Assembly (NCBI GenBank): GCA_019359095.1
Contig: JAHHHZ010000013.1
Location: forward strand, 124,001-188,000
Direction of reading: 5' to 3'
Origin: Pleurocapsa minor HA4230-MV1
GTDB lineage: Bacteria > Cyanobacteriota > Cyanobacteriia > Cyanobacteriales > Xenococcaceae
Length of the DNA stretch: 64,000 bases
The position numbers and the translations under genes were made by a program. The notes beneath the pieces were generated by a model. It saw only the letters and a program-made list of their open reading frames with translations, was not told where the DNA came from and did no database searches. The stretch's first letter is position 1; every line of letters begins with the position of its first letter. Positions 523 through 6,429 of the stretch are shown piece after piece.

Positions 523-2448
523 ATGAATACACCTCAAATGGCTTCTTGTGGTTCTTGGAAATCTCCCATAACCTCAGATTTAATTGTTGACCAAACTGTT
601 GGCATTGGTAGTGTGGCTGTCAACCAAGGAAATATTTATTGGCTAGAAAAAAGACCCCAAGAACAAGGAAGAAATTTATTGATCGGCTACGGTAACCCAG
701 AAGAGGTAAAAATTTTCACCCCAGCACCCTTAAGCGTGCGGAGCAAAATTCATGAATATGGGGGAGGTGCATTCGTAGTTGATGGAAATACAATTTATTT
801 TTCTAACTATCAAGATGGCAAAATTTATCAGCAGGTAATTGGCACGCAGCCTTATCCTTTGACGGACAAATTGGAGCAACGTTATGGAGATCTGATCGTT
901 GATCGATCCAGAAATCGCCTAATTTGTGTTTGTGAAGATCATTCTGTAGCTGGCGAAGCCGTTAATAATCTGGTGACGATTAATCTCAGTACTGGGAGAA
1001 AGCAAAATTTAGTTACAGGTAACGATTTTTATTCTTCTCCTCGTTTAAGTCCTGATGGCAGATATTTAGCGTGGTTGAGCTGGAATCATCCTGATATGCC
1101 ATGGGATAGCACTTATCTCTGGTTGGCACAGCTTGACGCGGAGGGGATGGTTTTAAAGCCTGAATTAATTGCGGGAGGAATAGCCGAATCGATCTGTGAA
1201 CCCAAATGGGGTGATGATGGTACGCTTTACTTTTCTAGCGATCGCACTAACTGGTGGAATTTATACCGACGACAACCCGATGGCAAGGTGGAAATTCTTC
1301 ATCAAAAAGCTGCCGAGTTTGCCTATCCCCATTGGGTATTTGGCTTATCTACCTATGCTGTTGTGGGAGAGCGTCTAATTTGTGCTTATTCAGCGGATGG
1401 CTATTGGCATTTAGGCACAATTGACCTAAAAACTAAGCAGTTTAGCGAAATTAGAACTAGATACACCAATATTTCCGATCTTCAAGCTGGTAATGATTTT
1501 GTCGTCTTTATTGGCGGTTCGTCAACCGAAACTACTGCGGTAATCAAGCTAGATTTAAAGACCTTGAGAGAACAAATACTACGGCGTTCAGGAGAGCTGG
1601 AGATCGATCCTGGTTATTTATCCTTACCAGAGGCGATCGCTTTCCCTACTACTGATGGTCTTACTGCTCATGCTTGGTATTATCCCCCGCAAAATAAAGA
1701 CTACATGGCGCTATCAGCAGAACTTCCTCCTCTAATAGTCAATAGTCATGGAGGCCCTACCGCAGCGGCTGCTGTCGAATTGAACTTGCGAATTCAATAC
1801 TGGACTAGTCGTGGTTTTGCCTATTTAGATGTGAATTATGGTGGTAGTATTGGTTATGGTCGTCAGTATCGGCAGCGACTAGACGGCAAGTGGGGTATTG
1901 TCGATGTGGATGATTGTATTAATGCTGCTAAATACTTGGTTGAACGCAAAAGCGTCGATGGCGATCGCCTAGTAATTACAGGCAGTAGCGCTGGTGGTTA
2001 CACTACCTTAGCAGCCTTGACCTTCCGTGATACTTTTAAAGCGGGAGCGAGTTATTATGGCGTGAGCGATCTAGAGATCTTAGCCAAAGATACTCATAAG
2101 TTTGAGTCGCGCTATTTAGATCGTTTAGTGGGCAAATATCCTGAAGACAAAGCTATTTATCAAGAGCGATCGCCGATTTACTTTATAGAACAGTTAGACT
2201 GTCCCGTAATTTTCTTCCAGGGATTAAAAGATCAAGTCGTACCCCCCAATCAGGCGGAAATGATGTTTGAGGCGATTAAACACAAGGGTTTACCCGTGGC
2301 TTATATTGCTTTTGCCCAAGAGGGTCATGGTTTTAGAATTGCTGAGAATATTAAAAAAGCTCTCGATAGCGAATTTTACTTTTATTCCCGCGTCTTTGGC
2401 TTTGAACCAGCAGATCGGCTCGAACAGATCGAAATAATTAATTTATAG
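523..2448 (+). CDS. S9-family prolyl oligopeptidase / acylaminoacyl-peptidase-like protein
   Basis: Serine peptidase of family S9, expected to cleave short peptides in the cytoplasm, since no signal peptide is visible. The N-terminal ~370 residues have the repeated beta-strand character of a beta-propeller (for example SPDGRYLAWLSW and EPKWGDDGTLYFSSD). The C-terminal ~260 residues form the alpha/beta-hydrolase domain. The catalytic triad can be placed at Ser489 in GSSAGG, Asp570 in GLKDQVVPP and His602 in EGHGF. The length of 641 aa is normal for bacterial dipeptidyl-peptidase/AARE-like members. The next gene begins within 10 bp of the stop, so co-transcription is likely. Exact substrate unknown. 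Confidence 0.9.
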   Translation: MNTPQMASCGSWKSPITSDLIVDQTVGIGSVAVNQGNIYWLEKRPQEQGRNLLIGYGNPEEVKIFTPAPLSVRSKIHEYGGGAFVVDGNTIYFSNYQDGKIYQQVIGTQPYPLTDKLEQRYGDLIVDRSRNRLICVCEDHSVAGEAVNNLVTINLSTGRKQNLVTGNDFYSSPRLSPDGRYLAWLSWNHPDMPWDSTYLWLAQLDAEGMVLKPELIAGGIAESICEPKWGDDGTLYFSSDRTNWWNLYRRQPDGKVEILHQKAAEFAYPHWVFGLSTYAVVGERLICAYSADGYWHLGTIDLKTKQFSEIRTRYTNISDLQAGNDFVVFIGGSSTETTAVIKLDLKTLREQILRRSGELEIDPGYLSLPEAIAFPTTDGLTAHAWYYPPQNKDYMALSAELPPLIVNSHGGPTAAAAVELNLRIQYWTSRGFAYLDVNYGGSIGYGRQYRQRLDGKWGIVDVDDCINAAKYLVERKSVDGDRLVITGSSAGGYTTLAALTFRDTFKAGASYYGVSDLEILAKDTHKFESRYLDRLVGKYPEDKAIYQERSPIYFIEQLDCPVIFFQGLKDQVVPPNQAEMMFEAIKHKGLPVAYIAFAQEGHGFRIAENIKKALDSEFYFYSRVFGFEPADRLEQIEIINL

Positions 2449-2457
2449 TTGATTTTT

Positions 2458-3126
2458 ATGGCGATTAACCAAGTATTCTTATATGTCCCTAATCTGATTG
2501 GCTATGTCAGATTTATTTTGTATCTGGCCAGCTTTATTAGTCATAGTTTAGGTTACTGGCAACTGTGTATTGGACTATATGCGATCGCCTTTATCTTAGA
2601 TGAATTTGATGGTCGTGCTGCCCGTGCTTATAATCAAAGTAGTAATTTTGGTGCTGCCCTAGATATGGTGGCGGATCGTTCGGCAACTGCGGGTTTATGT
2701 CTGATTTTGGCGCAGCTATATCCTGATTATTTATTAGCTTTTATTGGTGCGATCGCTCTTGATATCAGTAGTCATTATTATTTAATTTATGCTACAGGAA
2801 TGCGGGGATCGGCCAGTCATAAAGATTCGGCTCAATGGTCAAATAACGGACTATTGAAACTTTACTATGGCAATAAATCTTTCATGGATTTGCTGATTCT
2901 GGGTAATGAGCTATTTTATTTACTGCTATATCTCGATTTTTATCTGGTGGGTATGAGTTTCAATCTGGCTGGATGGCAGACCAATATTTGGCAGTTGGCG
3001 CTCATTGTTTCCTTGCCGATTTACTTATTAAAACAGACGACAAACATATTTCAATTACAGACAGCAGGACAAGAAATAGCCAAACTAGACTTGGATAATC
3101 GTGAATCTAAATCAGCGGCTGAATAA
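2458..3126 (+). CDS. CDP-alcohol phosphatidyltransferase, eukaryotic phosphatidylinositol-synthase type
   Basis: Integral membrane enzyme that moves a phosphatidyl group from CDP-diacylglycerol to an alcohol. The full signature DGx2ARx8Gx3Dx3D is present at residues 51-73 with all three Asp residues. Outside the signature it also carries features I recall from animal and plant PI synthases (CDIPT/PIS1): an N-terminal VPNLIGYVR, a GSASHK motif, a KLYYGNK segment and GNELFYLLLYLDF. Inositol is therefore the predicted acceptor. Several hydrophobic segments fit a six-helix protein, and 222 aa is the usual PIS length. I chose the ATG at 2458; a TTG at 2449 would abut the upstream stop. Two HIP1 sites inside the gene show it is settled in this genome. 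A PgsA-like or archaetidyl-inositol role is the alternative. Confidence 0.85.
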   Translation: MAINQVFLYVPNLIGYVRFILYLASFISHSLGYWQLCIGLYAIAFILDEFDGRAARAYNQSSNFGAALDMVADRSATAGLCLILAQLYPDYLLAFIGAIALDISSHYYLIYATGMRGSASHKDSAQWSNNGLLKLYYGNKSFMDLLILGNELFYLLLYLDFYLVGMSFNLAGWQTNIWQLALIVSLPIYLLKQTTNIFQLQTAGQEIAKLDLDNRESKSAAE

Positions 3127-3189
3127 TATTGTTCTATACTAATTAAGCCAATACTCAGCCTTAATCATATAGATAGAGCGCGATCGCTG

Positions 3190-4572
3190 ATGAAACAGTC
3201 CCCTGAAGCAGATCTTCCTGAATCAAGCATTGCCAGCGCAGTGGATATTGCCCTTGCTTGTGCATTACTACAACGCACAGAGAATGGAAGCTTAACCCAT
3301 TGTCCCTTAATGCTTTCCCCCGCTAAGGTCACTGACTTATTGATTACTCAACTAGAGTCTTTGGCTCAACCGCTAGCACTACTGATTCATCGAGTAGCCA
3401 ACAATTTAGAGTTTCTGGAAGAACAGCTGCAATTTACTGCTGCTAATGATGAATATACAGGCTTTTTATTGTCTCTCGCTCAGTCACAAGGTCATCAGGA
3501 TAGGCTACGGTTTTCGATTACCCGCAGTGACTACTTTATAACGCAACAGGGAGATAGCTTACGCCAGGTCGAATTTAACACCATTGCTGCAAGTTATATC
3601 GGTCTGTCCGAAAAAATCACTGAATTTCATCAAATATGGGGGAATCTCAGTAACGAAACCTGGGATTTACTACCCAATCAACCGATCGCTATAGTTGCTG
3701 ATGCATTCGTGACAGTAATGAAGGAGTACAATGTTGATGATGCTTACGTGCTGTTTGTGGTTCAAGCTAACGAGCGTAATGTTTTCGATCAGCGCCTATT
3801 AGAAATCGCCCTGATTGAACGAGGTATAAGAGTTGTACGTGCTAGCCTAGAAGCTATTGGTGAACAGGGAGAATTACGTCAGGGTCATCTAGTATTGAAC
3901 GGTGAAATTGCAGCTATTACTTATTTTCGAGCGGGTTATCGTCCTGATGAACTCGAAAGCGAAATAGCTCGTCAAGGTCGTCAGTTAATTGCTCGTTCAA
4001 CGACAATTTCTGTGCCAGATCTACCGACTCATTTAGCAGGGACAAAGAAAATTCAACAAGTATTGACGAATCCCGAACTGTTAAAGCATTTCCTTAATGA
4101 GCAGGATATTGCTATAGTTAGAAGCGCCTTTGCTCAGATTTACCCCCTTGATGCTTCCATTGAATTTGCAGGCAAAACCATGCTAGCCAAAGAAGCTGCT
4201 ATTTTACAGCCAGAGCAATTTGTCCTCAAACCCCAGCGAGAAGGAGGTGGTTTCAATCTCTACGGTGATGAACTGCGCCAATGTCTGCAAAATCTACCGA
4301 CAGAAGCAGGTAACGCATACATCCTAATGGAGCGATTATATCCCCCTGTGTCCCAGGGTTGGGGTCTACGGGAAGGAAAACTCTGGCAAGGACAGGTTGT
4401 ACATGAAATTGGTCAATATGGCGTTTTAATTGCCCAAGGCGAGCGCATTTTAACCAATCAAGCAGCAGGCTATCTCGTCCGCACTAAACTTGGCGAGATG
4501 AACGAGGGGGGTATATCGGCGGGATATGGACATCTTAATAGTTTGGTCAAAAGTAATATCAAGTCCGCTTGA
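3190..4572 (+). CDS. Glutathione synthetase, eukaryotic (GSS) type
   Basis: ATP-dependent ligase joining gamma-glutamylcysteine and glycine to give glutathione. The 460-aa protein follows the eukaryotic GSS fold, not bacterial GshB (about 315-330 aa). Seen in order: RSDYF (~116), VEFNTIA (~132; metal-binding Glu and Asn), ERNVFDQR, YFRAGYRP, LAGTKKIQQ, the glycine-rich loop KPQREGGGFNLYGDE (~347) and the C-terminal substrate lid VRTKLGEMNEGGISAGYG. In human GSS, as I remember it, the corresponding strings are nearly the same. One loop Asn is Phe here (GGGFN for GGGNN). It sits 63 bp after the PIS-like gene on the same strand and is probably co-transcribed. Whether the genome also has gshB cannot be seen. 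Confidence 0.9.
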   Translation: MKQSPEADLPESSIASAVDIALACALLQRTENGSLTHCPLMLSPAKVTDLLITQLESLAQPLALLIHRVANNLEFLEEQLQFTAANDEYTGFLLSLAQSQGHQDRLRFSITRSDYFITQQGDSLRQVEFNTIAASYIGLSEKITEFHQIWGNLSNETWDLLPNQPIAIVADAFVTVMKEYNVDDAYVLFVVQANERNVFDQRLLEIALIERGIRVVRASLEAIGEQGELRQGHLVLNGEIAAITYFRAGYRPDELESEIARQGRQLIARSTTISVPDLPTHLAGTKKIQQVLTNPELLKHFLNEQDIAIVRSAFAQIYPLDASIEFAGKTMLAKEAAILQPEQFVLKPQREGGGFNLYGDELRQCLQNLPTEAGNAYILMERLYPPVSQGWGLREGKLWQGQVVHEIGQYGVLIAQGERILTNQAAGYLVRTKLGEMNEGGISAGYGHLNSLVKSNIKSA

Positions 4573-4671
4573 TTACTTCTTATAAAATCTTTGCGCCTTT
4601 GCGTCTTGGCGCGAGTTTTAATTGGAATTATCTAAACGGACTTCATATAAGACCTAGATTTTGGTTGGTCA
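4573..4671. repeat. Short intergenic repeat between convergent genes
   Basis: Contains TTTGCGCCTTTGCGTCTTGGCGCGAG. The reverse-complement type (GACGCAAAGACGCAAAG) recurs near 63660-63680. It lies between the convergent glutathione synthetase gene and argS and may act as a weak bidirectional terminator; that role is inference. Confidence 0.35.
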
Positions 4672-6429
4672 TTACATTCTTTCTAAGACATTAATACCTA
4701 ATAAAGATAAACCTAACTTAATTGTACGTGCGGTTAGATCGGCCAAAATCAAACGAGATGTTCTTTGTGGCTCGGCTGCATTTAAGATCTCACACTGTTC
4801 ATAAAATTGATTAAACTTTTGGCTCAATTCAAAAAGATATAAACAAATACGATTAGGTAGTAAACTAGATTCAACTTCTTTAAGCACTTCTTCAAATTGC
4901 AAAATATGTTTTGCCAAAGCTAATTCTGGTTCTGCCGTCAAGCTAATTTTCGTGTTCTGATCTAACGCAGAAAAATCAATATTACCTTTGCGACTAACCC
5001 CTTGAGGACGTACATAGGCATATAACAAGTACGGTGCTGTATTACCTTTTAAGTCGAGCATTTTATCGAAGTCAAACTTATAGTCTGAGGTACGATTCTG
5101 ACTTAAATCTGCGTATTTTACTGCACTTAAACCCGTTACCTGAGCTACATGATTGATAAATTCTGGAGTTTCTTTTCTTGCTTCTGCTTCTAATCTAGTT
5201 TCTAATTCTGCACGAGCATAATCTACCGCTTCATCTAATAAGTCTTTAAGCTTAAATGTTTCACCAGAACGAGTTTTAATTCTCTTACCATCTTTACCCA
5301 ATACTAACCCAAAGGGTACGTGAACTACTTCCACTTCATCGGGTAAGATTTTTGCTTTTCTAGCTACCTGAAATACGGCTGCAAAATGATTAGCCTGTCC
5401 AGAGTCAGTAACGTAAATAATTTTGTTAGCGCCATCTTCTTTGACTCGATATTTAATTGCTGCTAAATCAGTTGTGGCATAGTTAAAACCACCATCAGTT
5501 TTCTGGACAATTAGAGGTAGAGGCTCACCATCTTTATTAGTAAAGCCATCTAGAAAAACACACATTGCGCCTTCACTTTTTTCTAGTAAACCTGTTTGTT
5601 TTAATTCACTAACAATGTCTTCCAGAAAAGGATTGTAAAAAGATTCACCTCTTTCTTCTAGCTTAATATTAAGCAGATTGTAGATTACCTGAAACTCTTG
5701 GCGAGACTGATCGCATAATAACTGCCAAGCATGAAGGCTATCTTCAGCACCCGCCTGTAACTTAACGACTTCTTGTCTAGCGGTTTGCTTAAACTCTTCA
5801 TCTTCGTCAAAACGAACCTTGGCTTGTTTATACAGAGATACCAAATCACCAATATTTAAAGCATTAGCAGTAGTTAGCGCTTCGGGATAAGCTTCTCTCA
5901 GGTAAGCAATCAACATGCCAAACTGAGTCCCCCAGTCGCCTACATGATTGAGACGCAATACCTGATAACCACGAAATTCTAAAATACGCGCGATCGCATC
6001 ACCAATAATGGTTGAGCGCAAGTGTCCCACATGCATTTCTTTGGCAATATTGGGACTGGAAAAATCGACAATTACCTTTGATGTTGGCTGTACCTGGGGA
6101 ATGCCTAATCTTTCGTCTGACTGGATCTGACTCAGCAACTGCTCAAGATAACTAGATTTGAGCATAAAATTGATAAAACCTGGCCCAGCGATGGTGGGGG
6201 TTTCGCACATATCCTCAATTTGCAGATGATCGATGATTGCTTGAGCGATCGCTCGCGGATTTTGCTTGAGGGGTTTGGCTAGAGATAAGGCTACATTAGA
6301 CTGATAATCGCCAAATTTGGGATTATTCGTCGAGGTTACCAGAGGATCGGTATCTGCTAACTCATCACCAAAAGCAGATAATAAGGCTTGGCTAACAGAA
6401 TCTTGAAGCTGTTCTAGTATGGAGGTCAT
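4672..6429 (-). CDS. argS: Arginyl-tRNA synthetase
   Basis: Class I aminoacyl-tRNA synthetase that charges tRNA-Arg in the cytoplasm. An N-terminal additional domain (residues ~1-90) comes first. The HIGH-type motif follows as HVGH at 133-136 in [16 protein letters not shown], then the Rossmann core, and [13 protein letters not shown], which replaces the missing KMSK of this family. The C-terminal DALR anticodon-binding domain includes the string YLLYAYVR and ends in NVLERM. The length of 585 aa is normal. The ATG at 6429 follows a GGAGG-like stretch. Transcribed alone, divergent from the PRC-barrel gene. Confidence 0.97.

Follow-up and report, generated by a model that had tools for sequence, protein, structure and literature searches.

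To our knowledge, phosphatidylinositol (PI) is not a lipid that is usually expected in cyanobacteria. Two routes to inositol lipids are distinguished in the portion of PMC9246714 available to us, one of the mycobacterial type that takes inositol phosphate and a eukaryotic one that takes free inositol. With regard to glutathione, both gshA and gshB appeared to be essential in Synechocystis according to the accessible part of a review (PMC10295655). A literature search of open-licence papers, covering mainly titles and the openings of abstracts, found no description of a eukaryotic-type glutathione synthetase (GSS) or PI synthase (PIS) in cyanobacteria. The present work concerns a stretch of 64,000 nucleotides (positions 124,001 to 188,000 of contig JAHHHZ010000013.1; hereafter the window) from the cyanobacterium Pleurocapsa minor HA4230-MV1, in which the genes for a putative PIS and a GSS lie next to each other on the same strand, 63 bp apart. 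Both enzymes are of known kinds and it is the host that is unexpected. We consider it likely that these two eukaryotic-type enzymes were acquired separately, that GSS displaced gshB in a few Pleurocapsa-like cyanobacteria and that the older PIS makes PI. We are most certain of the hybrid glutathione pathway and the empty gshB site that goes with it, whereas PI in a cyanobacterium is the more exciting but less certain result.

The GSS of the window resembles the eukaryotic enzyme over nearly its full length. It scores 354.3 bits against TIGR01986, the equivalog model for eukaryotic GSS (curated cut-off 329.8), and it contains both domains of the eukaryotic enzyme (PF03917, 281.5 bits, cut-off 25; PF03199, 81.6 bits, cut-off 20.9); PF03917 was matched in none of 14 control genomes. 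In a phmmer comparison with solved structures, the plant, human and yeast enzymes were matched with E values of 9.8e-76 to 2.5e-60, and the motifs shared with them (human 2hgs, yeast 1m0t, plant 5oes) comprise E128/N130, ERN..DQ, YFRAGY, LAGTKK, KPQREGGG and RTK. In an alignment with human 2hgs, read by eye, R112, E128, N130, E195, N197, Q201, R247, Y250, K286, K347, E351, R431 and K433 are retained, which we take to correspond to the ATP/Mg and substrate residues of human GSS; the exceptions are human S149 and N372, in place of which A133 and F355 are found. Where soybean homoglutathione synthetase reads LP, a position that is presumably a specificity switch, the aligned window protein reads SA, which suggests that the substrate is glycine rather than beta-alanine. 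The eukaryotic motifs and type that the initial annotation of this DNA had assigned to the protein are thus borne out, and the differences from the eukaryotic enzymes lie in the cyanobacterial host and in the partner enzyme, which is a cyanobacterial GshA.

The distribution of GSS was compared with that of GshB, a different protein family that carries out the same step in other cyanobacteria. Among the 13 genomes compared from the genus of P. minor, GSS is present in four, viz. the genome of the window (G000), Pleurocapsa sp. CCALA 161 (G296), the metagenome-assembled genome (MAG) Hyellaceae CSU_1_1 (G293) and an uncultured Pleurocapsa MAG (G292), and in 292 sampled genomes of the phylum it was found only in G000 itself. 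GshB (TIGR01380) was above the cut-off in 36 of 40 relatives, and the four lacking it are exactly the four with GSS. Within the genus this reciprocity holds for 13 of 13 genomes, the nine others having GshB and no GSS. The best TIGR01380 match in G000 reaches 56.3 bits against a cut-off of 299 (GshF was not searched for). Outside the genus, a genome scan based upon two short patterns, which was not exhaustive, detected GSS in seven non-cyanobacterial records and in two MAGs, one of Symploca (77%) and one of Trichodesmium (71%). GshB over the cut-off was found in neither of these MAGs, whose completeness is not given, and in none of 13 GSS-bearing genomes that were searched, nine of which were reached through loci and likewise have no stated completeness.

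The former site of gshB can still be recognized. In the five relatives where it was measured (G302, G070, G298, G301 and G297), the gene order, with names assigned by reading the sequences, is grxC-gshB-DUF2499-DUF3593; G299 deviates in that gshB is not followed by the two DUF genes. The four GSS-containing genomes retain grxC, DUF2499, DUF3593 and prfB, but gshB is gone, and the gaps between grxC and DUF2499, counted with the stop codon of grxC, measure 56, 136, 254 and 173 bp. No credible remnant of gshB was found in these gaps (best piece 20 bp, E 1.2e-4; none by tblastn), and those of G293 and G296 start, as judged by eye, with sequence resembling the old grxC-gshB leader. That the neighbouring genes are retained speaks against the absence of gshB being due to missing contigs, also in G292. 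Loss of gshB, which the initial annotation had raised as a point to be checked, is therefore confirmed strikingly. In a tree based upon four genes G000, G293 and G296 grouped together (99/99), and because G292 was unplaced, gshB could have been lost once or twice within the genus. As a separate observation, the empty sites L139:5391-5446, L140:4929-5064 and L141:4872-5125 end in short AATCAGTAATTA-like repeats (by eye); similar repeats occur after gshB in G301, and they may have aided the deletion.

GshA was above the cut-off in 12 of the 13 genus genomes, with 687 bits in G000. As GshA is present in the genome of the window, glutathione synthesis is most likely hybrid, with cyanobacterial GshA being followed by eukaryotic-type GSS, which would convert gamma-glutamylcysteine, glycine and ATP into glutathione; GSS would have been acquired before gshB was lost.

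The adjacent PIS protein matches the Pfam family CDP-OH_P_transf (PF01066) with 59 bits (cut-off 22), and it carries the full CDP-alcohol phosphatidyltransferase signature, D..DG..AR..N.....G..LD...D, printed in the part of PMC8727905 available to us. It matched nine NCBIfam models, in every case with a score far under the cut-off, including those for phosphatidylinositol phosphate (PIP) synthase (NF045883, 23.5 bits, cut-off 170), archaetidylinositol-phosphate synthase (NF040950, 31.6 bits, cut-off 180), PgsA (TIGR00560, 29.2 bits, cut-off 109.1) and PssA (27.3 bits, cut-off 107). Its whole length aligned with provisional, non-database sequences of yeast and Arabidopsis PIS1 with 39% and 37% identity (E 2e-40 and 4e-38), close to the 41% by which these two resemble each other, whereas for the PgsA-type paralogue of this genome the match spans some 75 residues. 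The SHY, SHK and GNE.FY residues are invariant in all 13 cyanobacterial rows, as is H106, which aligns with His114 of yeast PIS. The catalytic signature and the eukaryotic PI-synthase type that had been read from the sequence at the outset both stand. The window protein differs from eukaryotic PIS in its bacterial host and in that its PI synthesis is predicted from sequence. The ratio of nonsynonymous to synonymous substitution rates (dN/dS) was 0.060-0.136 for PIS (five pairs, the sixth being saturated) and 0.094-0.129 for GSS (six pairs), the values being rough for the five of these 11 estimated pairs in which dS exceeds 1; because dN/dS is 0.06-0.14 in 11 of 12 pairs, purifying selection appears to act on both genes, which look maintained.

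PI production by the strain of the window is therewith likely, and by the type of its enzyme it would use the eukaryotic, free-inositol route, in which PIS would join CDP-diacylglycerol and free myo-inositol to give PI. The inositol may be supplied by the genome's own inositol-phosphate synthase, Ino1, together with a putative phosphatase, whereas the role of the lipid in the cell can only be inferred. Supply of inositol by Ino1 is also a feature of the bacterial PIP-synthase pathway of mycobacteria and Bacteroides (the available part of PMC9246714); that pathway differs in taking inositol phosphate directly, and the window protein is by score outside the PIP synthase family. Ino1, another item that the initial annotation had suggested looking for, is present in G000 (G000:C33:64334-65419; PF01658, 122.7 bits, cut-off 27). 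It is 80% identical to its homologue in G320, a family member from another genus, where PIS and the gene for inositol-3-phosphate synthase share a strand and are 69 bp apart. In a sample of the order, 14 of 120 genomes matched ino1, 11 of them strongly and three at <40 bits. For 12 genomes, stretches of unequal length around ino1 were checked with two phosphatidyltransferase queries: a phosphatidyltransferase was near ino1 in four (G320, G385, G381 and G358) and none was found within the stretch examined in the other eight, including G000. In G381 and G358 the gene near ino1 encodes a PIP-synthase-like enzyme (144 and 132 bits in G381, cut-offs 180 and 170) and is accompanied by a PfkB-family kinase.

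Some further observations were made around ino1. The phosphatidyltransferase and PfkB kinase genes of G381 (L148:4178-4786 and 4846-5772) and G358 (L149:3730-4335 and 4402-5310), which belong to another cyanobacterial family, possibly represent a second inositol-lipid pathway. Beside ino1 in the contig of G385 there is a divergent PIS-like gene (L145:7446-8095, about 38% identical), the frame of which is broken. A fatty acyl-AMP ligase-like gene adjoins ino1 in G000 (L132:2943-4856), G070 (L154), G297 (L155) and G320 (L075:6465-8264), and the PIS of G301 (L068) is followed by a large gene starting with such a domain; acyl activation may be connected with inositol lipids.

The seven non-cyanobacterial GSS records noted above all belong to the phylum set of G390 (52 genomes), which is here labelled the SAR324 phylum after L057 and L058, its other members being labelled Deltaproteobacteria or proteobacterium. 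PF03917 exceeded the cut-off in 39 of these 52 genomes (loci L091-L120). The SAR324-phylum proteins are the nearest non-cyanobacterial relatives of the window GSS, with 36-45% identity (best 43-45%), as compared to 37-38% for plants. The sequence NTIAAS is shared by the window GSS and five of 12 SAR324-phylum rows, whereas the four solved eukaryotic structures have serine (NTIS or NTVS). While GSS is widespread in the SAR324 phylum, it is sporadic in cyanobacteria, where six sequences form one clade (100/100) on a long stem. By tblastn, GSS was also detected on 351 plasmid records at about 30% identity, 207 of them from Escherichia and 102 from Salmonella, with 306 of the 351 covering >=80% of the query. 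These enterobacterial and Vibrionaceae plasmid proteins (e.g. NZ_CP019905.1, annotated 'glutathione synthase') belong by match to the same family, but they differ in their low identity and in forming a separate long branch. Hence, GSS is not purely eukaryotic, since it occurs also in the SAR324 phylum and on enterobacterial plasmids. Carriage of the two genes by viruses or phages was considered and rejected, as a pattern scan of IMG/VR showed no relative of either protein and phage records, where PIS was not searched, gave no GSS match; plasmids gave no PIS match.

Side observations on these bacterial enzymes are that GSS is perhaps the usual glutathione synthetase of the SAR324 phylum, that 221 of the 351 plasmid records are predicted to be conjugative and some copies of GSS are partial, and that, of 15 rows picked across these records, 12 are annotated 'glutathione synthase'. 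Examples are L156:3965-5401 and a 3,293-bp plasmid of Escherichia albertii (NZ_CP141903.1).

PIS shows a different distribution. Its orthologues (>300 bits) are present in 13 of the 27 genomes of the family, comprising 12 of the 13 from the genus, all except the 81%-complete G292, together with G320. Of the 292 phylum genomes 168 gave a match, but the only strong ones were in G000 (484 bits) and G070 (377), the next among the matches listed being 35.6. In the 52 SAR324-phylum genomes no orthologue was found, the five weak matches not exceeding 24.6 bits, and hence PIS and GSS need separate histories. The order S9 peptidase-PIS-GSS-argS is common to G000, G293 and G296, so that the adjacency, which had been proposed for checking elsewhere, does recur; S9-PIS without GSS is found in G302, G070 and G294, PIS follows a prolyl-tRNA synthetase gene (named by reading) in G301, G298 and G300, and in G292 GSS lies elsewhere, among other genes. 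Based upon these distributions and gene orders, PIS is most likely the older of the two and GSS a later insertion. The adjacency of the two genes would then reflect a local insertion rather than a joint pathway or a single transfer.

The initial annotation had favoured a single horizontal transfer from a eukaryote that brought both genes, in keeping with their adjacency on one strand and their shared eukaryotic type. Its overall interpretation holds as regards the eukaryotic type of the enzymes, the gshB loss and the inositol-phosphate synthase, but not for the joint transfer, which was rejected based upon distribution and synteny: PIS is found in 12 and GSS in four of the 13 genus genomes, PIS occurs in several contexts, S9-PIS occurs without GSS and GSS without PIS beside it, and a clade of cyanobacterial and plant GSS was rejected (p 0.0006 by the approximately unbiased, AU, test). 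We regard one transfer for both as highly improbable. The other source considered at the outset, a little-studied bacterial lineage, fits GSS in view of the SAR324 phylum; for PIS, which has no orthologue there, a SAR324 source was rejected. A separate acquisition of GSS from an unsampled eukaryote, e.g. an alga, instead of a SAR324-like bacterium, deserves more weight. The trees examined comprised 46 rows, 38 rows (without near-duplicates, yeast, L099 and L103) and 37 rows (without near-duplicates); their eukaryotic sequences, never more than four, were all taken from solved structures, and the AU tests are uncorrected for their number. Without plasmid rows, a clade of cyanobacterial and eukaryotic GSS was not rejected (p 0.485; 0.354), and even with them, separating the cyanobacteria from SAR324 was not rejected (p 0.138). 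However, the SAR324 sequences are closer than those of plants, the 37-row tree, to which two plasmid rows and human GSS had been added, set cyanobacteria and SAR324 apart at 95/98, and with plasmid rows the grouping of cyanobacteria with eukaryotes was rejected (p 0.025). Each of the three trees had a branch that separated the eukaryotic sequences from the rest, at 99/99, 100/99 and only 55/15, and nesting of the cyanobacterial GSS within eukaryotes was not found, its union with plants being that rejected above. A eukaryotic donor is thus rather unlikely, though to be reckoned with, and the evidence leans, short of proof, towards a SAR324-like source, the donor not being settled. Contamination or mis-binning of the window could be suspected from the rarity of GSS in the phylum, from the lack of highly iterated palindrome (HIP1) sites in the GSS gene and from its guanine plus cytosine content of 0.443 as compared to 0.395 for the window. 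The HIP1 sites that the initial annotation had cited against contamination do lie in the PIS gene (2581 and 2749), with one more in the leader (3180). Stronger evidence comes from the 448,820-bp contig in which the window sits, within a cyanobacterial genome of 5.64 Mb that is reported as 100% complete, and from the same gene order, including flanking genes, in two other assemblies; the gshB site is also empty in the same four genomes that have GSS. Contamination was rejected on these grounds, and its probability is negligible.

The functions of the two enzymes are open to alternative explanations as well. GSS might not be the glutathione synthetase of this organism, in which case the loss of gshB would indicate a loss of glutathione or a hidden substitute, such as the GshF that was left out of the searches; the role of GSS is after all read from its sequence. 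This is nevertheless very unlikely given the retention of GshA in the genus, the strict reciprocity with gshB there, the conserved catalytic residues, the purifying selection on the gene, and the apparent need of Synechocystis for gshA and gshB in the review part cited above. For the transferase, a product other than PI, viz. PIP, phosphatidylglycerophosphate, phosphatidylserine or a lipid with a novel head group, is an unlikely outcome of more substance: the catalytic signature is common to the family and the substrate cannot be read from it, and in a further family of cyanobacteria a PIP-synthase-like enzyme is encoded beside ino1. It is opposed by the scores far below the cut-offs for PIP synthase, archaetidylinositol-phosphate synthase, PgsA and PssA, by the full-length match to the provisional PIS sequences, by the invariant SHY, SHK and GNE.FY residues, and by the existence of a separate PgsA-type paralogue.

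We therefore retain the proposal of a PI-producing PIS beside a separately acquired GSS that took over from gshB, and the following points weigh against it. The eukaryotic PIS references were not database sequences and were written down after the window had been seen, which gives the match a weaker standing, and no eukaryotic PIS was matched in the set of solved structures. For His114 of yeast PIS, which we presume to affect inositol binding, a literature search gave no mention of the H114Q mutant in the papers listed. The AlphaFold model of PIS, mostly helical, is modest (predicted local distance difference test score, pLDDT, 70; predicted template modelling score, pTM, 0.59), and a PIS tree with PgsA and PIP-synthase rows had long branches, was unreliable and was not used. 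Further, ino1 is not beside PIS in the genome of the window, and Ino1 of G320 scores 443.8 bits, below the TIGR03450 cut-off of 638, although over the Pfam PF01658 cut-off. In G292 (81% complete) neither PIS nor GshA was found in the searches. Lastly, two SAR324-phylum genomes with GSS have GshB-like sequences, a match of 267 bits as against 299 in G391 and an 86.7-bit piece at a contig end in G393, and the exclusion between GSS and GshB is hence not strict in that phylum.

Within a single genus, these genomes provide a natural experiment, in that one central redox enzyme has been exactly swapped between them and the site of the former gene can still be seen; the cost and benefit of GshB as compared to GSS can therefore be tested among close relatives. 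Where the eukaryotic enzyme came from is a question on which the occurrence of GSS in most of the sampled SAR324-phylum genomes also bears. If PIS works as proposed, a cyanobacterial lineage makes PI by the eukaryotic route, and PI in cyanobacteria would change the lipids that are expected from them, also for lipid-biomarker work. A broader proposition, on which we are nearly evenly divided with some leaning towards doubt, is that inositol phospholipids are real and overlooked in cyanobacteria, through at least two ino1-linked routes (PIS in Pleurocapsa-like genomes, G320 and G385; the PIP-synthase type with PfkB in G381 and G358), and that one lineage also exchanged gshB for a GSS circulating among bacteria (SAR324, plasmids), the 'eukaryotic' GSS thus being partly bacterial.

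Table 1. Genes and sequence motifs at the PIS-GSS locus (positions in the window).
Feature	Position	Strand	Basis or remark
S9-family peptidase	523..2448	+	Immediately upstream of PIS; relatives without GSS share the S9-PIS order
PIS, eukaryotic-type phosphatidylinositol synthase (CDP-alcohol phosphatidyltransferase), 222 aa, putative	2458..3126	+	Profile and alignment
CDP-alcohol phosphatidyltransferase signature D48..D51-G52..A55-R56..N59.....G65..L68-D69...D73	2599..2676	+	Invariant in 13/13 rows; motif as in the available part of PMC8727905
GSS, eukaryotic-type glutathione synthetase, 460 aa	3190..4572	+	Profiles, structure matches and alignment
GSS motif VEFNTIA (E128, N130 = human E144, N146)	3568..3588	+	Alignments; roles of the human residues presumed
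GSS motif LAGTKKIQQ (K286 = human K305)	4033..4059	+	Alignments; role presumed
GSS ATP-grasp motif KPQREGGG (K347, E351 = human K364, E368)	4228..4251	+	Alignments; role presumed
argS (arginyl-tRNA synthetase, named by reading the sequence)	4672..6429	-	Convergent with GSS

The coordinates and strands that had initially been given for the two open reading frames are correct. For PIS, the ATG at 2458 is the likelier start, the frame being open from a TTG at 2449 as well, and the end is at 3126. Additional partial PIS matches at G297:C1:5226012-5226272 and L070:3493-3582 (G295) suggest a past duplication or movement of this gene. In G293 the argS match beside GSS (L065:1608-3361) is in two pieces in different frames, which are 90% (residues 1-82) and 67% (residues 78-585) identical, as compared to 92% for G296, and this copy has possibly been recombined or misassembled.

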